Shown: positions 10,246-44,527 of the stretch, piece by piece
Position numbering within the stretch: the stretch's first letter is position 1
How the letters are laid out: each line of letters starts with the position of its first letter
Assembly: GCA_015501585.1 (NCBI GenBank)
Contig: JADNRY010000126.1
Location: 115,469-179,468 of the forward strand
DNA: 64,000 bases
Source of the DNA: Rhodocollybia butyracea
Lineage: Eukaryota; Basidiomycota; Agaricomycetes; Agaricales; Omphalotaceae
Direction of reading: 5' to 3'
Notes under the pieces: model-generated
Database searches by the model: none
What the model saw: the letters and a program-made list of their open reading frames with translations, nothing else
Told to the model about the DNA's origin: nothing
Made by a program: the position numbers and the translations under genes

Positions 10246-10386
10246 TGTAACAGTACAGATCAATCCCTGCCGGACCGATCCTTCCACCCTATATAAGACT
10301 TGATTGTACATAGATAGAGATTAGTTTACTTTGAATCCAGCGCTATCCCTGTCATTCCGAGTATCTCTTCATGTGACTACTGTCAC
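10246..10386 (+). repeat. Possible short LTR with TATA box
   Basis: The segment starts TGTAACAG after a purine-rich AGGAGGGCATA and ends CTGTCACA, so its termini are nearly complementary. It holds CTATATAAG at about 10292. This would be a 141-bp LTR or LTR fragment. No matching second copy is in the window and I see no target duplication. It could belong to Gypsy-2, whose Pol fragment begins directly after it. Confidence 0.35.
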
Positions 10387-10394
10387 ATATTTTC

Positions 10395-11177
10395 TTTACA
10401 ATTGGCCAAATCCTATGGTCAATGGTCGAAGCAGACCAAAAAGACTGGGTAGAAAAATGCCCAATGATGGAATTCACATTGAATTCCAGTGTAAACAAGA
10501 GCACAGGGTATGCTCCCTTCGAGGTAGATAAAGGGTACATGCCATCCATGGTTCGCAAATACCCGAGCGATGCAAAAGTCTCGCCGGGTGTATGCAAATT
10601 CGCAGATTGTGCCCTTCAGCACCTCTCTGATGCCCACAATAGTCTTATCAAGGCAAGGGTAAAACAAACCTTCCATGCTAATAAGCACAGAAGGGATGAA
10701 CCCAAAATTAAACTAAATGATTTAGTTTACCTATCGACAAAGAACTTAAATTTGCCGAGGGGGAGGGCTACCAAGCCCTTACCAAAACTCTTAGGACTGT
10801 ACCCCGTCCTCGAGGTACACCCAGATTTGTCTAACTACCGAATCGGATTGCCAACAGAGTTGGCAAAGCATGGAATACACAATAACTTCCATGCATCACT
10901 AATACGCAAGCATCATCCTAACAATGATGCATTATTCCCTATGCGCTCTGTAGCAGAGCCATACAATTTTGGCAAACCATCCACAGTGGAATGGTTAGTC
11001 GATGAAATAATTGGACATCATTGGGATGGCCAAAAAATACTACTCCATGTTAAATGGAATCTTGGTGATATCACCACAGAACCGTCCACAACGTGTAAGG
11101 ACCTAGTTGCTCTAGATAGATATCTAGAACTTCAAGGCATCAATGACTGGCAACAACTTCCACGGACAACTGGTTAG
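10395..11177 (+). pseudogene. Gypsy-2 integrase C-terminus and chromodomain
   Basis: The 5'-truncated Pol end of a second Ty3/Gypsy element. The frame is open for 251 codons from about 10422 to the stop at 11175. It starts inside the integrase core (ADQKDWVEKCPMMEF, NKSTGYAPFEV), passes ANKHRRDEPKIKLNDLVYL and NNFHASLIRKH, and ends with a chromodomain segment (VEWLVDEIIGHHWDGQKI, HVKWNLGDITTEPS). The same region of Gypsy-1 matches in order but is diverged. The intact frame contrasts with the missing 5' part. The DNA is unusually rich in short perfect hairpins, for example stem TTGCCAAC at 10848-10866 and stem AACTAAA at 10711-10727. Confidence 0.88.
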
Positions 11178-13959: not shown

Positions 13960-14326
13960 ACACTGCCGAGCAGAACAGTCCTTTAAACTCTAGGTTCTGG
14001 CTTGCTGTGCAAGCCACAGTCTCACCAATAACTCAAGAGAGTGGCCTAGTTCAGACACAGAGAGTGGTAATAAATAACTTCACTTCTCACAATAGAGTAA
14101 GCAAAGGCCAAATGTGTTTAGTATACTGAGAACCTAGGAAATGCCAACTTGAACCCAAGTCTAGGTATTTGGCTTACTGTGCATTTCACAACAGTTCAAG
14201 GAACAAGAGCTACTTAGGCAAGAGGAAAGAACAGAAAGTAATATACAAAAGAATAACTTAAAGAGGACAGTAAAGGGGGGGATAAGCCATGGAAAATATT
14301 ACAAAAAAGCGCAATAAAATAAAATA

Positions 14327-15270
14327 TCAGTCCAGGTCTGCTAGGCAGATCATTGTAGGGGAATGAACAGATACCACCAATGAATCAGTGGAAGATAGTG
14401 GGGAATGGAGATCATGAATGTGTGGAAAGTCAGGAGAGATTTCCCAACTATTTGAGAAAGTGACTGCAGAGAACTGTGTAGCAAAGCCTACTGGATCAGA
14501 TACCTCTTCTTTAAACTGCTGGAGAGCACTGTAAATCTCATCCAAGGTATATCCAAGCTGGTCCTGGATGGTGCTAACCATAGCAAGAGCCGCCGAAATC
14601 CTCCTAGCCCATGTATTATCCCCTTCAGAGTTAGCTTTGTCATGTAACTCTTCAAGAAAGAGAAATAGGGAGTAGGAATCATCAATGGTAGCCTCCAGAA
14701 AAGGTTGAACATCTGCTTGAGCAAAGCAAGCTAAACCATTGGCAAGACACTAGAGTTGAGCCAAGATACATTTAGGACATAGTAAAGAATATTATAAGCA
14801 AGAACTACTTACTTGGCGATCCCTGATCAGTTTTGCCTGTGTGTCAAGAAAATCTGGATATCCGCTCAATTCCCGGTCATTCCAAAGATCAGAAACTTCA
14901 GTAACCAACTTCTTGTTGGTCTGTTCAAGATGTTGAGAGTACAATTGCCATGCTCTGGCACTGTCATGATGTTCACGGCCATTCTGTATCAACTCTGTGA
15001 TAGTTCTACCAATGAACTGAGTCAGAGAGATTATTTAACAGGAAGCAATACAACATACTGGTCTCGTCAAGTCAACTCATCCTTGATCCACCCCAGGAGA
15101 CCATTGAGGTCAGTTGCAGCTTCAGGTGATGAAAATTGGGCAAAGAGACAAGAAGCGGCAGGATGCAGATACAATTGTGTAAACATAACCAGCAAGTTTG
15201 CAGTGTCATCAATAGGAGAAGGAAATCCAGTAGTAGACAGACTGGAAGGGTTGTTATGTGTGGAAGACAT
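14327..15270 (-). CDS. Three-exon gene of unknown function, antisense beside an LTR
   Basis: Starts at ATG 15270 (MSSTHNNPSSLSTTGFPS). Exon 2 is 15016-14813 and exon 3 is 14749-14327. Intron 2 (63 nt, GTAAGT..CTAG) joins them in phase. Intron 1 (15058-15017, GTATGT..CAG) is only 42 nt. A TGA at 15067-15069 in exon 1 and a one-base phase error before intron 1 would both vanish if one T were missing from the sequence near 15070. About 280 residues; the middle and C-terminal parts look helical (LWNDRELSGYPDFLDTQAKL; EEVSDPVGFATQFSAV). No family recognised. A TATA box lies 39 bp upstream. It may be a Gag-like or accessory gene of a retroelement. Confidence 0.6.
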
Positions 15271-15308
15271 GTTGTTTGAGTTGGAGAAAGAAAGAAAAAT
15301 TGATACAG

Positions 15309-15316
15309 CTTATATA
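15309..15316 (-). promoter_or_regulatory. TATA box upstream of the 14.3-15.3 kb gene
   Basis: On the - strand TATATAAG stands about 39 bp before the ATG at 15270, followed by a pyrimidine-rich leader (TTTTTCTTTCTTTCTCC). This is a good fungal core promoter arrangement and supports the chosen start. Confidence 0.6.
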
Positions 15317-15419
15317 GGAGGGAGTTTTCACACAAACCCAGGACAAGACACAACTTCAATTGATGGGTTTCGAGCCAACATGGGTTGAAACAGCGAGTCA
15401 TTGACTCATGCTCACTGAT

Positions 15420-16158
15420 TTTTCCAAAAATACACCCACAAAGTCCCAGAAACCGGAATAAACATGAGATTCAACTGCCCATTTAAGCTAGAATGCTCAC
15501 TAATACACTCGGAAATGAACCCGAAACTCCACAAAGATGATTAGTTTTGAGTCTGCATGAGATTCCACTTCCACTTTAATATTTATTGCTCAATAATCAA
15601 CTTGGAAATGAACCTGAAATACCAGATGTGGAAATCTCAAAGACACTCCAAACTTGAAACCAATTAATGACGCCACAAAATGAAATCTCTGATTAACTGT
15701 GATGCACTCAAAACCTTACTAGACCAATGACATCAAACATTCCCATGTAATCCACCAATCAGCCACTACTCATAATGACCATCATATCATTGATACACGA
15801 ACATTTCTATACAATCAACAATCATGATGGCTAAAGTAAATCTGATCCATGGAAATAAGGATACCGGTGGAGACTCCAACACATCACAATCATGATGTTA
15901 ATGCAACATGTGATTTGCCAACATTGGCTTTGACAATACTCGAGCAGGACAAGTGCAAAACCACACAAACCCGGCAATGCCGCCGCTAACACCAAAATGA
16001 TGAGCTTTCACACATATTCCAATTGACGTGAAATGTTCATGTAAACTCGAAACATGAATGGCAAGCTCAAAACTCAACCAACTGCATCCAAATAAAATGC
16101 CACAGTGACAGAATGTTTGCCCAAATCCATAAATGGCCTCAGAGGGTTTCGGCCTTAA
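15420..16158. other. Non-coding stretch before an LTR
   Basis: No gene seen. AT-rich, with scattered short repeats such as GGAAATGAACC-type words at about 15510 and 15604. It ends in the purine run at 16159-16166 and could be the 3' internal region of the element that owns the LTR at 16170. Confidence 0.4.
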
Positions 16159-17860
16159 GCGGGGGGTACTGTTATGACCCAATTCTACACTATAGGCATA
16201 TACACACTCTTTTTTCATTTATTAACAACCACTGATATGGCCCAGAATTGTTTGGGCATAAACATGCAGTATATGTGTGTTTTTGGCGCCAAGTCATGCT
16301 GTATTAGACATATGCACTGTACGAAGTATTCTAGAATCTGCCGTTACCACGCGGCATCATTAAAAGACACAGATGTTAATTGTTGATGACATCAAAACTG
16401 AGTCTCGGCAACAGAACACAGTTGTATTCAATGATAGTGCAAAGAATACTGAAACCCACCACAAATATGACTTATATTCAGACTATTGAAGCGATCCAAA
16501 GGGTATCGTATTACAACTAGAAGACTACTAGACAGAAGGAACAAGTATCAACGTTAAACGGTCCAAGCAGGACTTCCCATCAGAAATTGATGTGAGATTA
16601 ATGTATTGCCGACCCCGAGGAGATTGATGTATGAAGATTGATGTGCCGAGGTTCCGGGATCATTCCCAGATCATGCCGCGGCGTCCCGCAGATTTAAGAC
16701 AGCGCGTGAAATAAATATTTCATGAGCTATTTATTGAATAACAAGAGCATATGTACTCCCACACAACTCATATGGTGTATTTACACTGTGATATTGAAAT
16801 ACAGTATATAAGAAGGTGTTCCAGATGAAATGGAGGCAAGCACTTTCCTCCCCCCATTCCTGTTACAGGCTTGGTGTGGTTGGTTTGTGTCTTCTAGTGG
16901 CAAGTGCACATTAAACAAGACTACAAGTTAAATGAAATAAGAAAGTATAAAGAAAGAAAACCAAAGTCCTCAGTAACTACCTTATGCTCCAGAAAGTAAT
17001 AGCAGCGAGAGTGTTGTGAGTAGCGCATACTCTCTCTGTCAATTGTACTTTTAGTGTAAAGTCTAAGTTCAGGCAATTGAAAGATAAAGATTAAAGCATG
17101 CCTGAGTTTGTTAGAATCTTGAGACAGAAAATCTATCACAACCTTGTAAATATGATGCAGATGTATGTACTTGCAATAAGAATTCTGATTTGTTCAATGA
17201 TAACCCCCTTGAACTCATGTTAGTCTTTGGTGTGTGTTGGTGTTGGTGTGAGGTATTCAGCTTCATAGTAGCATTTTATGCATAGCCCAGAGCCGGCATA
17301 TCACCACCATGACTATCATTAATATTTTACTACCTAACACTATCGCATACATTCATTACTTATCTTCTCAACACAACTTGGGATAATGCTATTAGAGGTT
17401 GATCAATAAGGCAGACAGTGTACACAACACTGTTAGTAGGCTCTGGTCACACAGACACAGAGGAGATGAAGGTCCAGACACAGACACAAACAGAGAAAAC
17501 ACAACTTTGATATTTCACAAGTACATACAGGCTTAAATACGAGTCCAGCGAGTTAATAATAAGTACAACACGTGAAGCGTTCACAGACGGAGTGAGAGTA
17601 ATAAGACGAGAGTGGAATGGAGCACAAGGTAAGTAAGTAAGAATAGACCAGAGCACAATAATAAAGCAATGGCGAGTGGGCAGGATAAAGATAGTACAAC
17701 TAGTTCACATGCCAGTAGATACAGCGAGAGAGAACGTTCCATAGATAGTAACAAAGTGAGAAGACTGTTCCATAGTAAGTATAATGAAGATGATAGATGA
17801 CGAAGTCCAGCAAATGCTGCACATTACCATGGAAGCTGCAAAGACCCTTCCACACAGTAT

Positions 17861-18050
17861 TGACTCATTATTAGTCAACTCCAGTTCCACTAAATGACTC
17901 AATATCAGTCATCCATGACTCTACTGAATGACTCAACATCAGTCATCCACAGTTCCGCTTAAATGACTCAGTAACAGTCATTGCACACCATTCCACAGTC
18001 ATGATGACTGATTCGCAGCATTTCCGCAGTTATGACTCAAGTCTAGTCAT
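17861..18050 (+). promoter_or_regulatory. Cluster of TGACTCA palindromes upstream of a TATA box
   Basis: Five exact TGACTCA sites at 17861, 17895, 17929, 17964 and 18033, mostly spaced 33-35 bp. Most are followed 6-7 nt later by AGTCA so that each unit can also fold (stem ATGACT). TGACTCA is the binding site of Gcn4/CPC1 and AP-1-type bZIP factors. The cluster ends about 36 bp before TATATAAG (18086-18093), so it is placed like an upstream activating array of an LTR promoter. Confidence 0.6.
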
Positions 18051-18085
18051 TCTGCAGCATCTCCTAACTAGTACATATTAAACAG

Positions 18086-18093
18086 TATATAAG
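18086..18093 (+). promoter_or_regulatory. TATA box of the 16.2-19.1 kb LTR
   Basis: TATATAAG at 18086-18093, just downstream of the TGACTCA cluster. A start about 30 bp further would place the hairpin array at 18193-18506 in the transcribed leader. Confidence 0.55.
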
Positions 18094-18192
18094 GAAGCCA
18101 TATTTACCAATGTACAGTAGACATATTATTTTCTTAAATCCAAACCCCCACTTGTTTGCTGTTATCACTTGTGTGAATCACCAGACCAACTC

Positions 18193-18506
18193 ATTGTATC
18201 TTGTTGAGCTATCTCCAAGCTACAATACACATTTATACATCTTGTTGAGCTAACTCCAAGTTGTATCCACTAATATTCACCTGTTGAGCTATCTCCTAGT
18301 GAATATCTCTTTAATTGCCACTTGTTGAGCTATCTCCGAGTTGCAACTTCCTATTACTTGTTGAGCTATCTCCGAGTATTAGACACTACATTCACTACTA
18401 CTTGTTGAGCCATCTCCGAGTATTAGTTCTGATCCATATTACCGCTTGTCGAGCTATCTCCGAGGGTAATCTTATTATTATTTGTCGAGCTATCTCCAAA
18501 TAATAA
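18193..18506 (+). repeat. Array of eight hairpins with a conserved cap and covarying stems
   Basis: Units: 18193-18226, 18235-18266, 18273-18306, 18315-18346, 18351-18382, 18395-18426, 18438-18470, 18475-18506. Each has a near-constant centre, CTTG-TT-GAG-CTAT-CTC-CRAG, in which GAG pairs with CTC round a CTAT-type tetraloop and CTTG pairs with CAAG or CGAG. Outside it the arms change from unit to unit yet stay complementary: ATTGTAT with CTACAAT, ATACAT with TTGTAT, ATATTCAC with GTGAATAT, TTATTA with TAATAA. Pairing is 8-10 of 10-11 positions per unit. Confidence 0.9.
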
Positions 18507-19194
18507 CTTCTGTGAGTTTTGTATTACAAACTAGTTACTAACTGTACTTGAGCCTAGTTGTTTGAGTATATATTTTTTGCCTAGCGGTTTCAACAAACGG
18601 AAAGGCTTGCTCTATAATCTCATTGTTGAAGCCTGACCCCGTTACTATTAGGAGTCCCGCTTCTCGGGCCCGTTGCCGGTATAAGGGGAGGTACTTCTCC
18701 ATTCATGATTGTTTTTCCTTTTCTTATCTTACAGGCAAATCCTTTACCTTTGCCGCTTTATCTTTACTTACGTGCCTCATTGAAAAGCCATCAATACTTT
18801 ATTTATATTTTGATACTTTCCATTATTTCCCTCAGTCGTTGTACACTCTTGTACTACTGAGGGTAAGCTTACTCGTCTATTTACTTGTGATCTTTGTACT
18901 GATATTCACTTATAGTTTAGATTACTTACTAAGTTCACAGGTACTTATATTCCACAATACACAGTCGTTGTACACTCGTGTACTACTGAGGTTTAGATTA
19001 CTTACTAAGTTCACACTCATTAATTTCTCTTATCATTTTTACTGCCGAGTTACGTACTGTGAAGGTTTGGACGGGACTATTGATTGAGTCATAACAGGTA
19101 TCCGTTTCCCACAGATCACAGCGGGTCACAGGTATCACTTCAAAAAAATTAAGCTACTTGCAGGTACTTGCAAGAAGCCAAAAGCACCTTGTGG

Positions 19195-27250: not shown

Positions 27251-29417
27251 TGTGAAGCCTGTGCGCAAAAGTATCCTGTAAGCCTGAGAGAGGGAATGGA
27301 AGGGTAAGGGAGTTAACAGCCGTCAGCTGTTAGAAGTGAACAAAACCTGTATCCCTGGTCGAGGGTCGCGTGACCCGACAAAAGGGAGCTTGTGTCGTTG
27401 CTTAACGTCGCATTACCCAACGAAAGGGATCTCGAGAGCCTGAAACTAGGGATTTATAGAAAAGAGAATAGTAAAAGTAAACATAAAATTGTAGTAAAGT
27501 AATCTCTTTAGCGCTATTTGGGTATTTATGTGTAGGGATGCGAAAGGTGCTATAAAACAACCTAACAAAAACACTACCGCACCTAACCAGACTATCGATA
27601 TGTAAGGGAGCGAGGGCGGGTTGTCAGAGATTGCCCGAGGGAAAGCTTTGTAATATCGGGTGTACGCACGTGACTGCTCCAGGTTCAAGACTGTAGCGCT
27701 AACGTGGGTAACTAAGCTTAGACAACTCTTAGAACTAAGTCGAGAGAAGCCTAGTTGGGGTGTACGAGTGTACGAGGGAACCAGGTGTATATGTCCAAAT
27801 CAATTAACCAAAACCAAAACCAATGCAACGAAACTAAGATTCTCCTAGGCAAACTCTGGCTCTAGCTAGAATAGTAATCTCAAGGTTTGTCAACAACCCT
27901 AGGCAAACTCTGGCACTAGCTGCTGTGATGCCATAAAGTCCTCGACTAAACTCTGGGCCAAGCTACAATATTGTGAGTGAACTTAATCACTAGGAACTCA
28001 TACCACAATCTTAGTGGCTTGTCTAACTTCGTGAAGAAGTCAACTAAGGAACCCTCACTCTGGAGCCAAATAATCCCTTACTAGAAGCCGTCCCCTCTAA
28101 GGAAGCAACTAGATTTAAGTCGATCTGGAGTTCGAGAGAACTCTACACACTTAAATTCGATCAAGATATAAATGGGCTTTGCGAAGCACGTGAAGTTTAT
28201 TACTTTCTTAAGATAACCAAGTCAGGAGGCGTCACGCTACTGATCCCGTGGGGACGTTCTACGGAGCACTGGTCTTAGCAGTCAAGTCGAGGGCAAGAAA
28301 CTTGTCTTATTGAATAAATATATCTGGCTTATATACTGAGTAGAGAGAGTTTAATACAAAAAATAGATGAAACAGATACGGAGAGAGACGGAAAGAGAGT
28401 GGAACAGAGGAATCTGGCTCGGAAAGGAAACTCCAGCCTATATATGGTACACACGATAAAGAAATAGTCTATTCTTGGGTATATATCAGAGGTAAAATAT
28501 GATTTCGTGAGGGTTTAACATAGTTTTAGAGTGTTTTGATCCGAGCGAGGTTTCTCTGATTACTCCACAATTCTCCGGGGTCAGGAGTACCTTTGCGCTT
28601 CATGATCACTTGCCGCCCGGTTTCCCTTGGGTGAGTTTCATTCTATTCCTCGGATAGTTCTGTCCATCCTGAGTGTGATTAACATTCTCTCGAGAAGGCC
28701 TGTTATCTAGCTTTCCAATGACACCACTTATGATAATCTCGAGCAACTGCGCTGAGTATGTACAAGTGATTCCCGATAGTCGGCTTTAACGGATAAGACC
28801 TTCCGTGTATGATTTCTAAGATCAAATGTTTCGATTTGCCAAGGCTATCCCGGCGCGTAGCTTTCCGTGGGACTGCTAAGTATGTTTCTACTGTCCTCAC
28901 GGTTACGACCGGTGCCGCGAATAGACCTCTACGGTTTCCCTCGGGATTGTTCTGGTCCATTGTTACGGACTGTAAAGTCCACATCTTAACATAGCTCGTT
29001 GGGGGTCTTATTGCGAGGGATGCCTTCCCTCATAATTCCTTCCCTCGAGTAACGCATTGGCTTAGTACTTATCCCGCTTCGAGATGTCCTGTAGTTTAGA
29101 GAGTATGCACTCTTGGGTATAACTAGATTGACGATCTAGCGTTACATCTCCGGGCAGCCCAGGTATCCTCGCTAGCTTGGCTCTAGGCTACGCTTGTGGG
29201 TGTACCTTCACGGCTCGCTGAGTATTATTGTTAAGTTCTTTGCCTCGGTAACAGCTATCACGCTCGGGCTCCGTATAACTCTCTTATTGCATTGTATAAC
29301 ACGTACAAAGTGTCAAAATGTACGGTTACACGCCTTAGGCCGATTTTAGGCCTAATAGCGCTCTAGCGCTTACTACTTAAAGATTGGTAACATGACCGAC
29401 TGTACCCATCCGTCACA
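27251..29417 (-). repeat. 3' LTR of Gypsy-A, interrupted by an 1842-bp element
   Basis: Outer parts (27251-27515 and 29358-29417) match the uninterrupted 5' LTR at 45225-45544 almost base for base. The start TGTGACGG (29417) follows a purine run GGGGGGCAC. The ends TGTGA..TCACA are complementary. The LTR is otherwise about 320 bp. Confidence 0.92.
27516..29357 (-). mobile_element. 1842-bp solo-LTR-like element, copy in the Gypsy-A 3' LTR
   Basis: Flanked by GCGCT on both sides (27511-27515 and 29358-29362). Read on the - strand it starts TATTAGGCCTAAAATCGGCC and ends ACCCAAAT. Same length and nearly the same sequence as 41092-42933. No ORF is conserved as a protein. It carries a TATATAAG about 1.0 kb from its start and a 5-bp duplication, so I read it as a solo LTR, though its termini are not TG..CA. 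Confidence 0.88.
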
Positions 29418-34791: not shown

Positions 34792-35511
34792 TTCTTAGTC
34801 CAGGATATGCGGTGAATACCGCCCCCCAGGCAGCAAGTCTCCGATTAGTGTTCTCGTATACTCTTGCCCATTGTAGGGCAGTGTGGTCAGTGATGAGGAT
34901 GATTTGCTCGCCTTTGATAAATGGTTGAAATCTGATCAGAGCTTCCTTGGCTGCTAGAGCTTCTCTCTCCATCACGCTGTATCTTTTTTCGGCTGGTTTA
35001 AATGATCTGCTCCAGTAGGCTATGACTCTCTCTACTCTAATTTCTGTGTCATCCAAAGATTTTTCCCATGTACCTGGATTTTCTGGATAGTCTTTCACAT
35101 TCTCGTCAAGCTTGTTCAAGAATAGCGGGGGGTTTGGTTCTTTATCCAACCATGCCTTTCCCAGTTTTTCATATGCCGAGGTCCCCTTTAGATCTCCTAT
35201 TTGCATGGTTTGTACTTGCTGTAGGCATGATCCTAGTGCTACATCTGATGCGTCTGTATATAACCGGTAAGGCCATCCTGCTTCGGGATGTCCTAATACG
35301 GGAGCGTCAGTCAGCGCTAATTTAGCTTGTTCGAAAGCGATCTCGTGTTCAGCTTCCCAGTGCCATTTCACTCCTTTCCTTAGAAGAGAAAATAGAGGAG
35401 CTGCGATGAAGGCGTAATATGGAATGTATGAGCTGAAATACACCACCATTCCAAGAAATTTTTGCAGATCATGTACTGAATGTGGGCAGTCTAATTCGTG
35501 GATTGCCGCCA
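34685..35511 (-). pseudogene. Gypsy-A RT end and RNase H domain
   Basis: Begins within the RT thumb (HSVHDLQKFLGMVVYFSSYI). The RNase H is visible as YRLYTDASDVALG (Asp), SVMEREALAAKEAL (Glu), LITDHTALQWA (Asp) and HSNVDPISRLPR (Asp). Frame intact. It overlaps the integrase ORF by about 100 bp in another frame, so a frameshift or programmed shift joins them. Confidence 0.88.
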
Positions 35512-37055
35512 CTAAGCCAACGCGTTACTCAAGGGAAGGAATTATGAGGGAAGGCATCCCTCACACTAAGACCCCCAACGAGCTATGTTAAGATGTGGAC
35601 TTTACAGTCTGTAACAATGGACCAGAATGATCCCAAGGAAACTGTAGAAATCTATTTGCGGCACCGGTCGTAACTGTGAGGACGGTAGAAACATGCTTAG
35701 CGGTCCTACAGAAAGCTACGCACCGGGATAGCCTTGGCAAATCAAAACATTTGATCTTAGAAATCATACACAGAAGGTCTTATCCGTTAAAGCCGACTAT
35801 CAGGAATCACTTGCACATACTCAGTGCAGTTGCTTGAGATTATCATAAGTGGTGTCGTTGGAAAGCTAGACAACAGGCCTTCTCGAGAGAATGTTAATCA
35901 CGCTCAGGATGGACAGAACTATCTGAGGAATAGAATGAAACTCACCCAAGGGAAACCGGGCGGCGAGTGATCATGAAGCATAAAGGTACTCCTGACCCCG
36001 GAGAATTGTGGAGTAATCGGAGAAACCTCGCTCGGATCAAAACACTCTAAAACTATGTTAAACCCTCATGAAATCATATTTTACCTCTGATATATACCCA
36101 AGAATGGACTATTTCTTTATCGTGTGTACCATATATAGGCTGGAGTTTCCTTTCCGAGCCAGATTCCTCTGTTCCACTCTCTTTCCGTCTCTCTCCGTAT
36201 CTGTTTCATCTATTTTTTGTATTAAACTCTCTCTACTCAGTATATAAGCCAGATATATTTATTCAATAAGACAAGTTTCTTGCCCTCGACTTGACTGCTA
36301 AGACCAGTGCTCCGTAGAACGTCCCCACGGGATCAGTAGCGTGATGCCTCCGGACTTGGTTATCTTAAGAAAGTAATAAACTTCACGCGCTTTGCAAAGC
36401 CCATTTATATCTTGATTGAATTTAAGTGTGTAGAGTTCTCTCGAACTCCAGATCAACTCAAATCTAGTTGCTTCCTTAGAGGGGACGGCTTCTAGTAAGG
36501 GATTATTCGGCTCCAGAGTGAGGGTTCCTTAGTTGACTTCTTCATGAAGTTAGACGAGCCACTAAGATTGTGGTACAAGTTCCTAGTGATTAAGTTCACT
36601 CACAATATTGTAGCTTGGCCCAGAGTTTGGTTGAGGACTTTATGGCATCACAGCAGCTAGTGCCAGAGTTTGCCTAGGGTTGTTGACAAACCTTGAGATT
36701 ACTATTCTAGCTAGAGCCAGAGTTTGCCTAGGAGAATCTGAGTTTTGTTGTATTGGTTTTGGTTTTGGTTAATTGATTTGGACATACACACCTGGTTCCC
36801 TCATACACTCATACACCTAGGCTTCTCTCGACTTAGTTCTAAGAGTTGTCTAAGCTTAGTTACCCATGTTAGCACTACAGTCTTGAACCTGGAGCAGTTG
36901 CGTGCATACATCCGATATTACAAGACTTTCCCTTGGGGAATCTCTGACAACCTGCCCTCACTCCCTTACATATTGATAGTCTGGTTAGGTGCGGTAGTGT
37001 TTTTGTTAGGTTGTTTTATAGCACCTTTCGCATACCTACACGTAAATACCCAAAT
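35512..37055 (+). mobile_element. Truncated copy of the 1842-bp repeat replacing the RT active site
   Basis: Matches 41384-42933 from CTAAGCCAACGCG to the terminal ACCCAAAT but lacks the first 290 bp. It sits between RT sequence ending KRMAFG (37056) and RT thumb sequence (35511). The segment of RT that would carry the YxDD box is missing, so one deletion seems to have removed both the left end of the repeat and part of RT. Compared with the 41-kb copy most differences are CG to TG or CG to CA. Confidence 0.85.
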
Positions 37056-37568
37056 ACCGAACGCCATTCTTTTGAATTGGAACAGTCCTAGATGGCAACA
37101 GAAAGCTGTCTTTTCCTTAGCTTTGTCAGCCATTTGAATCTGGGTGAATCTAGACAGTGTGTCAAATGAAGACAGAACTTGAGACCCCAATAGAGCTTGT
37201 ACTATTTCAGATTGGCGTGGGATAAGAAATTCATCCGGTATCGTCTGCGCGTTGAGCTTTCAATAGTCAACAGCAAAGCGTGGCTTTCCTTTCTGAAATA
37301 TCACCACTACCGGGAATCCCCAAGGACTAGCCGATGGTTCTATCACGTCTGCCTCCAACCAGCTAGCGACTTGCTTGTCTATCACTTCTCTCTTCAAAGG
37401 GGAGGCAGCATACATAGGCAGGGATACCGGCTGCAAACCTTCCTTCAGGTTCAAAGGAACTTTTGCTGGATAGTCTCCCAGACAACCATCTAACCCAAAG
37501 GCTTCTTGGTTCTTGTTAAGGACATCCTTCAGATGGGGTAATACATTCTTGGGGATGTCTGGTCCCAA
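37056..37568 (-). pseudogene. Gypsy-A reverse transcriptase, N-terminal part
   Basis: Reads PLKREVIDKQVASWLEADVI, EPSASPWGFPVVVIFQKGKP and RFAVDY, a TGA where Arg (CGA) is expected, KLNAQTIPDEFLIPRQ, LSSFDTLSRFTQIQM (motif A) and KTAFCCHLGLFQFKRMAFG. It then stops at the nested repeat. The catalytic YxDD motif is absent. RT cannot function. Confidence 0.88.
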
Positions 37569-40265: not shown

Positions 40266-41091
40266 TGGCAGACCTCTGTGGGGAAATCCTGGGACTGGTG
40301 GAGGACCCATGGACGGTCCTGACAAACCACCTACTCCTCCTGGACCTCCTGGGCCACTCAGGCCCCCCTGACCACCATCACCTCCAAACATTCCTGTTGG
40401 GCCATGTTGAATAGGAAGAAACCCGGCCTGTGTAGCAGGAGGGGCGGTCGACACGACCGTAGCCTGGTTGACGTAGGTATAAACATGGCTCGTCCATGGT
40501 TCTACTTGGGATAATTGTACTGGTCCAGGCATATGAGGAGGAAGGGGACGGTTATCAAACCTGACAGGATTTGAAGGGAGGATGGGCCCCAATCCGGGTA
40601 GACGACTTACTACCGAACGTGATGGAGCAGCCGAGATTGATATAGGCTTGTTGACAAAAAGAACAAGGGGTTGGTTAACAATCTCCAAAGAGGGAGGGGG
40701 AGGTGGTTGGGAAGAGTCTGTGGTCCATGAGAAGGGGTTGTTTTGAGCGGAAAATGCATGAGAGACTGATTCGACTGTCAAATGTTCGGATTGTCGCCTT
40801 CAATGAGATACCAGACGAGAGGGCGGTAGTGAGGACTCGGTTGTCTTCGCAAACCCCTCAAGGCCGAGACACTATACTCTTGAGCTCCTGGTATATTCCT
40901 CACATACTCAGGTCTACTTAGAAGTTTTCCCAATTCCACCGGTCCAGACTCCTTACCGAACTGATCTCGCACTTCTGGCACTGTAGACATCAAGGAGCTC
41001 CCAACTAGGCTTTCGTTATCTGGAATCTCTAATCCGCACCTGCGCCTGATAGTATGAAGGTACTTCCAAATATGAGAATATGCAGCATCGG
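40266..41091 (-). pseudogene. Gypsy-A Gag, N-terminal middle part
   Basis: Continues the Gag frame upstream of the foldback element: SHIWKYLHTIRRRCGLEIPD, STVPEVRDQFGKESGPVELG, PHYRPLVWYLIEGDNPN, then after a one-base shift near 40785 a Pro/Ser-rich segment (PPPPSLEIVNQPLVLFVNKP). The left limit is the target duplication (ATCGG) of the 1842-bp element, across which the reading frame (ARADAAYSHIW) is continuous. Confidence 0.6.
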
Positions 41092-42933
41092 TATTAGGCC
41101 TAAAATCGGCCTAAGGCGTGTAACCGCACATTTTGACACTTTGTACGTGTTATACAATGCAATAAGAGAGTTATACGGAGCCCGAGCGTGATAGCTGTTG
41201 CCGAGGCAAAGAACTTAACAATAATACTCAGCGAGCCGTGAAGGTACGCCCACAAGCGTAGCCTAGAGCCAAGCTAGCGAGGATACCTGGGCTGCCCGGA
41301 GATGTGACGCTAGACGGTCAATCTAGTTATACCCAAGAGTGTATACTCTCTAAACTACAGGACATCTCGAAGCGGGATAAGTACTAAGCCAACGCGTTAC
41401 TCGAGGGAAGGAATTATGAGGGAAGGCATCCCTCGCACTAAGACCCCCAACGAGCTATGTTAAGATGTGGACTTTACAGTCCGTAACAGTGGACCAGATC
41501 AATCCCGAGGGAAACCGTAGAGGTCTATTCGCGGCACCGGTCGCGACCGTGAGGACGGTAGAAACATGCTTAGCGGACCTACGGAAAGCTACGCGCCGGG
41601 ATAGCCTTGGCAAATCGAACCATTTGATCTTAGAAATCATACACGGAAGGTCTTATCCGTTAAAGCCGACTATCGGGAATCACTTGTACATACTCAGCGC
41701 AGTTGCTCGAGATTATCATAAGTGGTGTCGTTGGAAAGCTAGATAACAGGTCTTCTCGAGAGAATGTTAATCACACTCAGGATGGACAGAACTATCCGAG
41801 GGATAGAATGAAACTCACCCAAGGGAAACCGGGCGGCGAGTGATCATGAAGCGTAAAGGTACTCCTGACCCCGGAGAATTGTGGAGTAATCGGAGAAACC
41901 TCGCTCGGATCAAAACACTCTAAAACTATGTTAATCCTCACGAAATCATATTTTACCTCTGATATATACCCAAGAATGGACTATTTCTTTATCGTGTGTA
42001 CCATGTATAGGCTGGAGTTTCCTTTCCGAGCCAGATTCCTCTGTTCCACTTTCTTTCCGTCTCTCTCCGTATCTGTTTCATCTATTTTTCGTATTAAACT
42101 CTCTCCACTCAGTATATAAGCCAGATATATTTATTCAATAAGACAAGTTTCTTGCCCTCGACTTGACTGCTAAGACCAGTGCTCCGTAGAACGTCCCCAC
42201 GGGATCAGTAGCGTGACGCCTCCTGACTTGGTTATCTTAAGAAAGTAATAAACTTCACGCGCTTCGCAAAGCCCATTTATATCTTGATTGAATTTAAGTG
42301 TGTAGAGTTCTCTCGAACTCCAGATCAACTCAAATCTAGTTGCTTCCTTAGAGGGGACGGCTTCTAGTAAGGGATTATTCGGCTCCAGAGTGAGGGTTCC
42401 TTAGTTGACTTCTTCACGAAGTTAGACGAGCCGCTAAGATTGTGGTACGAGTTCCTAGTGATTAAGTTCACTCACAATATCGTAGCTTGGCCCAGAGTTT
42501 GGTCGAGGACTTTACGGCGTCACAGCAGCTAGTGCCAGAGTTTGCCTAGGGTTGTTGACAAACCTCGAGATTACTATTCTAGCTAGAGCCAGAGTTTGCC
42601 TAGGAGAATCTTAGTTTCGTTGTATTGGTTTTTGGTTTTGGTTAATTGATTTGGACATACACATCTGGTTCCCTCGTACACTCGTACACCCCAACTAGGC
42701 TTCTCTCGACTTAGTTCTAAGAGTTGTCTAAGCTTAGTTACCCACGTTAGCGCTACAGTCTTGAACCTGGAGCAGTCGCGCGCGTACATCCGATATTACA
42801 AAGCTTTCCCTCGGGGAATCTCTGACAACCCGCCCTCGCTCCCTTACATATCGATAGTCTGGTTAGGTGCGGTAGTGTTTTTGTTAGGTTGTTTTATAGC
42901 ACCTTTCGCATACCTACACGTAAATACCCAAAT
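41092..42933 (+). mobile_element. 1842-bp solo-LTR-like element, intact copy
   Basis: Starts TATTAGGCCTAAAATCGGCC and ends ACCCAAAT, with the duplication ATCGG at 41087-41091 and 42934-42938. Exactly the same length as the copy at 27516-29357. Contains TATATAAG at about 42113, three GCCAGAGTTTG repeats near the right end, and the inverted motif TAGGCC..GGCCTA at the left end. It has no coding capacity. Possible alternative: 1843 bp with a 4-bp duplication and 7-bp imperfect inverted ends (TATTAGG/TATTTGG). Confidence 0.9.
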
Positions 42934-42938
42934 ATCGG

Positions 42939-43954: not shown

Positions 43955-44527
43955 CACTACAGCGCGTTCTATAAACGGCACATGAAAAAGTCAGCGACAT
44001 GTACAATGACAAATTTTGACCAAAAATTGATGAACGTCCTAAGAAAAAGTGTACATTTATTATGCAGTAAAGTAAATGACATTTATGATTATTATTCTGA
44101 ACAATTGCGTGTGAAATTCTTCTCCTATATTGGGCGTAAAAGGCTTTGAAAATCAATTTCTTTGTCCCACGCCATTCATATTGTTTTTCGCGCGAAAAAC
44201 ACAAGCGGGAGGCGGAAATCAATTTCTTTGTCCCACGCCATTCATATTGTTTTTCGCGCGAAAAACACAAGCGGGAGGCGGTGGCATTTTATTTTGCACG
44301 CGAAAAACAATATGAGTGGTGTGGGCAACAAAGAAATTAAATTTCAAGGCCTTTTGCGCCCGATATAGGAGACAACTTTCTTGAAATAATAAGCTTAAAT
44401 GTCATTTACTTTATGGATGTGATAAATAAATACTTTTTCAGTGGAAGTTGATTAATGTTTGCTTAAAGATTGTCATTGTATATGTCAATGACTTTTTCGC
44501 GCGCCGTTCATAGAACGCGCTGTAGTG
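43955..44527. mobile_element. 573-bp CACTA-type foldback MITE
   Basis: Ends CACTACAGCGCGTTCTAT on both strands, with the 3-bp duplication TGA at 43952-43954 and 44528-44530. CACTA ends and a 3-bp duplication define the CACTA/CMC superfamily. The inverted repeat extends about 250 bp into each arm, so the element folds on itself. A 66-bp block with TTTTTCGCGCGAAAAA is tandemly doubled in the left arm (about 44151-44283). It lies in the N-terminal Gag coding region. Confidence 0.92.

Follow-up and report, generated by a model that had tools for sequence, protein, structure and literature searches.

A tandem hairpin array in the predicted self-priming leader of a Ty3/gypsy chromovirus from Rhodocollybia butyracea

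Eight tandem hairpins were analysed at 18193-18506 of the window, i.e., the whole 64,000-nucleotide stretch of Rhodocollybia butyracea DNA considered here. Sequence alone settles that they belong to a chromovirus whose predicted leader is of the self-priming type, the hairpin array being placed between the primer and the primer-binding site (PBS). The function of the array is most likely multivalent docking, probably for Gag (i.e., packaging). We give a probability of about 0.55 to the reading in which the array functions in cis, as RNA, within the leader (R/U5) of a self-priming chromovirus and serves as a multivalent docking platform, most likely for Gag. The kind of element is known; the hairpin array appears to be a new part of it, for which no described counterpart was found.

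The features of the window are given below. Each of the eight hairpins was delimited by unit alignment, fold and covariance model.

14197..16169, + strand: 3' internal region of the array-bearing element, ending in the polypurine tract AAGCGGGGGGTAC (16157-16169)
16170..19096, + strand: 3' LTR TGTTATGACC...GTCATAACA with 9-bp inverted ends (blastn of the L049/L050 LTR and end motifs)
17861..18060, + strand: U3 with repeated TGACTCA/AGTCA palindromes ahead of the TATA box (sequence; TRF array at 17861-17980)
18086..18093, + strand: TATA box TATATAAG (sequence)
18119..18130, + strand: putative self-primer AGACATATTATT, for which most copies have AGACGTATTATT; it should lie close to the 5' end of the RNA
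18193..18226, + strand: hairpin 1
18235..18266, + strand: hairpin 2, CTAA apical variant
18273..18306, + strand: hairpin 3, CCTG/CTAG variant with two middle pairs broken
18315..18346, + strand: hairpin 4
18351..18382, + strand: hairpin 5
18394..18427, + strand: hairpin 6, CCAT apical variant (GCC)
18438..18470, + strand: hairpin 7, one bulged G, TCGAG
18475..18506, + strand: hairpin 8, TTTG/CAAA, TCGAG
18625..19015, no strand assigned: inserted DNA downstream of the array, with CTCATT on both sides (blastn)

A preliminary description of this DNA had placed the array in a candidate LTR, 100-420 bp after a TATA box. Both points hold: blastn of related LTRs puts the array inside 16170-19096, and the measured distance is 107-420 nt after TATATAAG at 18086. 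The array thus belongs to the RNA leader, provided that the transcription start is at the usual distance. The window LTR is present as the pieces 16170-16233, 17303-17390, 17813-18624 and 19016-19096, with further insertions at 16234-17302 and 17391-17812. Upstream of it, 14197-15749 matches copy L014 at 96.6%, 14197-16232 matches copy L019 at 89.9%, and the segment 15980-16233 is 93.7% identical to the 3' end of L050 (the C481 copy). Neither the PBS nor the 5' LTR of the element was found in the 64-kb window, and a tRNA scan of the window returned no tRNA gene. The TGACTCA/AGTCA palindromes of U3 resemble bZIP sites of the Gcn4/AP-1 type and look like an enhancer array, which would suggest regulated transcription of the element.

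The family of the window array (F1) is described from copies in the window's own 95.6-Mb assembly (one genome). At least 39 other loci match the window array region at 93-98% identity (40 of 359 candidates scored, window included), and the 20-nt unit pattern has 1821 exact matches in the assembly vs. 0 for the reversed control. The homologues in related LTRs, for which the preliminary description had proposed to look, do exist, since matching arrays stand in many LTRs of the same genome. Uninterrupted F1 LTRs are 1069-1125 bp long and have the ends TGTTATGAC...GTCATAACA. Three of the four copies examined have target duplications of 5 bp (AGGGT, CAATC, GGCAG; L011 has none), so that F1 copies combine the paired LTRs, with TG...CA ends, and the short target duplication of LTR retrotransposons. 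The LTR pairs of three F1 copies differ at 0/1125, 0/1125 and 3/1069 positions, thus the insertions are recent. Two other candidates were rejected: a MITE or satellite, by the paired LTRs, target duplications and coding region, and a coding repeat, the array region preceding the gag ATG.

Pfam finds Retrotrans_gag (1.2e-7) and zf-CCHC in copy L012. The C481 copy (about 11.6 kb) contains RVT_1 (5.9e-39), RNase H, H2C2 and rve (7e-9), together with Chromo (1.5e-13) and SH3_Tf2-1 (2.4e-18), and its best solved relative is Ty3 (7q5b, 3.9e-96). Its domains follow the order of Ty3/gypsy chromoviruses, i.e., protease, RT, RNase H, integrase and then chromodomain, the protease match being below the curated cut-off (20.2 vs. 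28.2 bits). Judged by these predicted domains, the array-bearing element is a Ty3/gypsy chromovirus. In both L009 and L012, the internal region (3.5 and 4.9 kb, respectively) contains a gag-like frame, with no pol among the frames listed. Of eight gag homologues found, seven come from Dendrothele bispora and are 44-61% identical to the query across 45-91% of its length; the eighth is a JGI protein.

Gag-only copies fall into two classes, one with a capsid domain and CCHC (L012, 2136-5534, + strand) and one represented by L009 (4610-6859, - strand), whose frame of 749 aa shows a CCHC-like motif by eye and has no Pfam match. The LTR pairs of both copies are identical, which points to recent mobilisation. 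Antisense frames occur between pol and the 3' LTR (window 14330-14749, - strand; L075 756-1181 and 1215-1454, - strand); they look alike by eye in the window and C481 copies, and no Pfam family scores above cut-off.

Most F1 leaders read AGACGTATTATT about 33 nt past TATATAAG, and AATAATACGTCT, complementary to AGACGTATTATT over 12-13 nt, sits just inside the F1 5' LTR. The distance between TATA box and primer is 33 nt in 18 of 20 sampled 5' LTRs and 32 nt in one; in the twentieth (L091) the stretch is without TATATAAG. From this place past the TATA box, the primer segment is inferred to be the RNA 5' end, and the F1 leader looks like the self-priming type, with an RNA 5' end complementary to the PBS. 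A pattern search gave 53 LTR-PBS junctions (50 ACGT and 3 ATGT). Primer and PBS were compared in 27 of them: 20 pairs are perfect, 3 have one G-U and 4 have one mismatch (L018, L028 and L029, with both parts known and primers AGACGTATTATT, were left out of this count). The mismatches are A for G at CpG in three cases and C for G in the fourth, thus some may be post-insertion decay. The both-side change of L045 is weak as covariation because both of its changes are CpG transitions.

Four other families (F2-F5) were taken from gag relatives (at least 109 matches; 108 of 284 candidates scored). Their putative primer/PBS pairs are: (i) AGACTTCTTATT/AATAAGAAGTCT for F2, in 8 of 9 stretches (L060 over 10 nt only); (ii) CTTTAGTCTCTATATT/AATATAGAGACTAAAG for F3, in 7 of 7 (L063 over 13 nt); (iii) TAGTCCTAATATT/AATATTAGGACTA for F4, in its single stretch (1/1); (iv) TAGATTGGAAATA/TATTTCCAATCTA for F5, in both stretches (2/2), one with the last PBS base changed. 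Longer flanks showed the primer in C567, C658 and C511, and that of L051 was recognised by its motif; in the F2 stretch L055 no primer was found. The strong covariation of predicted primer and PBS is between families, every family having a distinct matched pair at the same positions. Since the five families have different matched pairs, they look like self-primed elements of the Tf1/sushi type. Priming by tRNA was set aside as less likely: the first 40 nt past the 5' LTR contain no TGG in the F1 copies viewed, and a matched self-primer stands in its stead. Five chromovirus-like families in one genome are also a ready data set on primer/PBS co-evolution.

When the leader is folded without constraint from primer to PBS, it closes on the primer-PBS helix in L012 (z -3.69, 0/20 shuffles) and likewise in L056 of F2 (z -4.22, 0/100 shuffles). 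The minimum-energy folds of both leaders hold the hairpins inside this helix. In L049, an F1 copy with a primer/PBS mismatch, the predicted primer-PBS pairing falls to 0.03.

Primer and PBS flank the array, and the gag frame has its first ATG within about 25 nt past the PBS. In the L012 leader no AUG occurs in 599 nt vs. 9.2 expected (0/2000 simulations). The F1 leaders L012, L049 and L009 have 0 ATG each vs. 9.1-9.8 expected (0/2000 simulations), the expectation being that of a first-order model and copies of the same family not being independent. A fourth F1 leader, L045, has 4 ATG vs. 11.9 expected (P 0.0055). The three F2 leaders have none (6.2-7.8 expected, P 0.0005-0.0015), nor has the F3 leader L053 (4.5 expected, P 0.01) or the F4 leader (one copy, a count without control). 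No significant ATG depletion is seen on the reverse complement of any control-tested leader (11 vs. 10.4 expected in L012). This depletion, restricted to the sense strand, marks the stretch from primer to PBS as a sense mRNA leader.

All eight units of the array are present, with spacings of 41, 39, 41, 36, 44, 44 and 36. The string CTTGTTGAGCTATCTCCRAG, which the preliminary description gave as shared by all of them, is exact in units 1, 4 and 5 (3/8) and altered in the other five, by GCC in unit 6, TCG in unit 7, CTAA in unit 2, CCTG/CTAG in unit 3 and TTTG/CAAA in unit 8. Similarly, the CTTG/CRAG stem claimed for all units is interrupted in unit 3, where the two middle pairs are broken. An outer stem is found in each of the eight units, with a mismatch in some and one bulged G in unit 7. 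A covariance model built on eight F1 units recovers 5/8 window units with default filters and 8/8 with filters off.

The outer arms had been described as unlike and complementary, and this is confirmed by permutation: among the 40,320 arm permutations, the true pairing alone reaches the observed sum. Own arms pair at a mean of 5.75 of 7 positions vs. 3.46 for swapped arms (eight window units). An ungapped alignment of the eight units was then compared with 500 shuffles. Paired cells amount to 85.7% vs. 73.3 in shuffles (0/500), cells changed on both sides are 14 vs. 4.8 (0/500), and the covariation for which a test had been suggested is significant (0.357 vs. 0.143, 0/500). The excess is weaker when pairs changed on both sides are counted (6 vs. 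3.5, 17/500), and further pair types are not in excess in the eight window units (10 vs. 9.7, 279/500). Pairing drops to 30-47% when the partner strand is slid along the alignment. The sense strand of the array folds at -72.8 kcal/mol (z -4.07, 0/100 shuffles); for the antisense strand z is -1.68 (3/100 shuffles). Real double changes are almost absent inside F1 unit classes (2 cases, one of them at the mostly unpaired outermost column), thus the covariation is between units. Within unit classes, G-U and A-C variants (16 vs. 15) give no strand signal.

The fold was said to be maintained up to the cap, with GAG paired to CTC. Here the result is different. The GAG and CTC columns are constant in all eight units, so that the cap is without covariation evidence, and the predicted fold pairs GA/UC around GCUA or GCCA in 7/8 units instead of GAG with CTC. 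We read the tip as a conserved sequence shown off by the stem, however the tip itself pairs.

The number of units varies among copies. The 50 grouped F1 arrays, 43 of which are distinct (some stretches overlap), contain 7 units (3 arrays), 8 (27), 9 (12), 10 (5), 12 (1) or 2 (2 fragments), i.e., 7-12 units in 48/50. The 43 distinct arrays comprise 353 units, which represent 97 different 44-mers. Additional units are spaced at 44 bp, and those multiplied elsewhere resemble window units 5 and 6.

A separate array is found in F2. Six perfect hairpins of 7-8 bp occur in each of L056 and L051 vs. at most 4 in 100 shuffles, and L052 and L058 contain 3 each (reached by 2 and 8 of 100 shuffles); the loops include AGCGTTTC, AGCATATTC and AGTATTTC. 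Among six aligned F2 relatives (5 distinct), two pairs have compensatory UA/CG changes and one has a G-U change. Their covariation is 0.091 vs. 0.054 (2/500), and pairs changed on both sides are not in excess (2 vs. 1.4 in shuffles, 234/500). No clear tandem array is present in F3, F4 or F5 (the last by eye only). The F4 leader (C567) is nevertheless hairpin-rich, with 4 vs. at most 2 in shuffles (0/100) and loops that are unlike, and the F3 leader has 2 hairpins (9/100 shuffles). As F3-F5 have primer and PBS and no clear array, the array is not essential to this type of element. It should be noted that F1 is not distinguished by the count of perfect 7-bp hairpins (1 vs. 1.22 in shuffles, 68/100), because F1 stems are interrupted.

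The tips of F1 and F2 often read TGAGY...CC(A/G), a pattern written after seeing the data: it occurs 3 times in L012 and 7 times in L056 of F2 (each 0/1000 shuffles), once each in L052, L058 and F4 (70-92 of 1000 shuffles) and 0 times in F3. The F1 covariance model gives no match up to E 1 on 24 other-family or pol loci with default filters. With filters off on 7 loci it gives 3 matches, the best (E 0.19) lying on the strand opposite to the L052 leader and the best at an F2 hairpin reaching only E 0.73 (L058). Since the model makes no link between F1 and F2, a common origin of the hairpins is not established despite the like tips.

Retroviral and Ty1 leaders contain a few unlike stem-loops near the PBS, which are bound by Gag in packaging and dimerisation. 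The present leaders resemble them in having stem-loops near the PBS, and differ from them in carrying a tandem series of 7-12 near-identical tips whose stems are unlike. To our knowledge, self-priming is known from a few model elements, and the arrangement of the leader around the primer has been worked out mainly for Tf1. With Tf1/Tf2 of Schizosaccharomyces pombe, Tj1 of S. japonicus and the Tf1/sushi group, the elements described here share the Ty3/gypsy superfamily and a PBS-complementary RNA 5' end; an SH3 domain after the integrase core, as in Tf2, is found in the C481 copy. According to the accessible text of the sources, the RNA 5' end is complementary to the PBS in self-priming Tf1 and Tj1 (PMC7175516, PMC4600332), self-priming applies to several chromoviruses (PMC3601003) and it has been proposed for Tcn1 (PMC7175516). 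The complementarity is 12-16 nt here vs. 11 in Tf1, as given in excerpts of PMC7175516, and no hairpin array separating primer from PBS is described for the Tf1/sushi group in the passages available from PMC7175516, PMC4600332 and PMC3601003. Tcn1-like chromoviruses of fungi and plants are also chromodomain Ty3/gypsy elements; for SM-Tcn1, passages of PMC2864245 report evidence of neither tRNA- nor self-priming, and the word hairpin is absent from that paper.

No Rfam match was obtained for the window at gathering scores, nor for 18050-18650 when matches up to E 1 were admitted. Literature searches, in which few subscription papers are covered, named no LTR leader with an array of hairpins; the lone match for tandem hairpin concerns Ebola virus RNA. 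A scan of IMG/VR with the unit pattern gave one contig with a single match, which a rough estimate puts at chance level. The earlier statement that no such element is described is thus correct for the array, which is unlisted in Rfam and in the literature searched, and not for the element, whose type is known.

Multivalent docking is suggested by the near-invariant tip on free stems, the high and variable copy number and the location in the leader, and, among packaging, dimerisation, translation and protein binding, the last fits best. Gag is the likeliest partner because a zinc-knuckle gag is the only recognisable protein of L012, where no pol frame is listed; a host protein is a less likely candidate. 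The retention of the array in gag-only copies supports docking weakly, because those copies share the whole LTR. The RNA 5' end would fold back onto the PBS and would be cut into a primer as in Tf1. Every hairpin would offer the same tip to an RNA-binding protein encoded by the element, most likely Gag via its CCHC zinc knuckle. Docked Gag would select and condense the genomic RNA for particle assembly, and RNAs of gag-only copies with the same LTR may be packaged likewise. More tentatively, and with the odds somewhat against it, amplification of a leader hairpin, in two or more families, may have produced a tandem platform that picks out the self-primed genome for Gag packaging by up to 12 protein-binding tips on freely evolving stems, i.e., a natural, element-encoded counterpart of the MS2-type arrays engineered for RNA tagging.

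Hairpins in a leader could also act on translation, by slowing or redirecting scanning ribosomes (scanning/shunting) and so balancing the use of the RNA as mRNA or as genome. The absence of AUG before gag (F1 3/4, F2 3/3, F3 1/1 and F4 1/1, F4 without control) fits an mRNA leader, and the hairpins are moderate (-72.8 kcal/mol for eight). We consider this explanation unlikely: any stable stem would do, which leaves the near-invariant tips on free stems unexplained, and the F3 and F4 leaders are AUG-free though without a tandem array. A scaffold or insulator, which would cut the effective distance from primer to PBS and prevent mispairing of the leader, agrees with the position of the array between the two, with its local folding in the minimum-energy leader and with the hairpin-rich leader of F4. 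It is nonetheless improbable, since the predicted primer-PBS pairing is the same with the array dinucleotide-shuffled (40 shuffles each): 0.975 vs. 0.973 in L012 of F1, 0.956 vs. 0.955 in L056 of F2, and 0.029 vs. 0.060 in the mismatched F1 copy L049. In this model, the priming fold can therefore do without the array. Loop length may not be given its full weight in the energy calculation, thus the shuffling test is not final against a scaffold.

The docking reading has to be compared with two further explanations, both of low probability. Dimerisation of the RNA through the invariant tips, by the AGCU palindrome or by swapped GAG/CTC caps, is suggested by the GAGCTAT-CTC tip, with self-complementary AGCU in 7/8 window units, and by the packaging of yeast retroelement RNA as a dimer, as stated in the accessible text of PMC7175516. 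F2 loops such as AGCGTTTC and AGTATTTC are not self-complementary and the GCC variant of unit 6 breaks AGCU, which makes this explanation very doubtful. Slightly less credible still is an element acting as DNA, in which the palindromes would serve a DNA-binding regulator or be recombination debris, with no role in RNA. The U3 of the same LTR does hold a palindromic TGACTCA array, the unit number does vary, with extra units at 44-bp spacing, and the strand test on G-U variants (16 vs. 15) is uninformative; yet the array is downstream of the TATA box, AUG depletion is on the sense strand, the folding excess is mainly sense (z -4.07 vs. -1.68) and the tips are not palindromic across their full length.

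One genome thus supplies five families with different primer/PBS pairs, two of them with hairpin arrays in between. Should the tips bind Gag or RT, the array would constitute a multivalent packaging signal of natural origin, available in many natural length variants, and would offer a simple in vitro system for asking how translation, packaging and priming are kept apart by an element on one RNA.

Elsewhere in the window, an open frame at 10377-11177 (+ strand) looks by eye like the C-terminal part of another Ty3-type integrase polyprotein. A long repeat is present three times at about 92-97% identity (27512-29360, 35511-37059 and 41089-42937), one copy being inverted vs. the other two. A perfect tandem duplication at 44150-44281 has a 66-bp unit containing TTTTTCGCGCGAAAAA.
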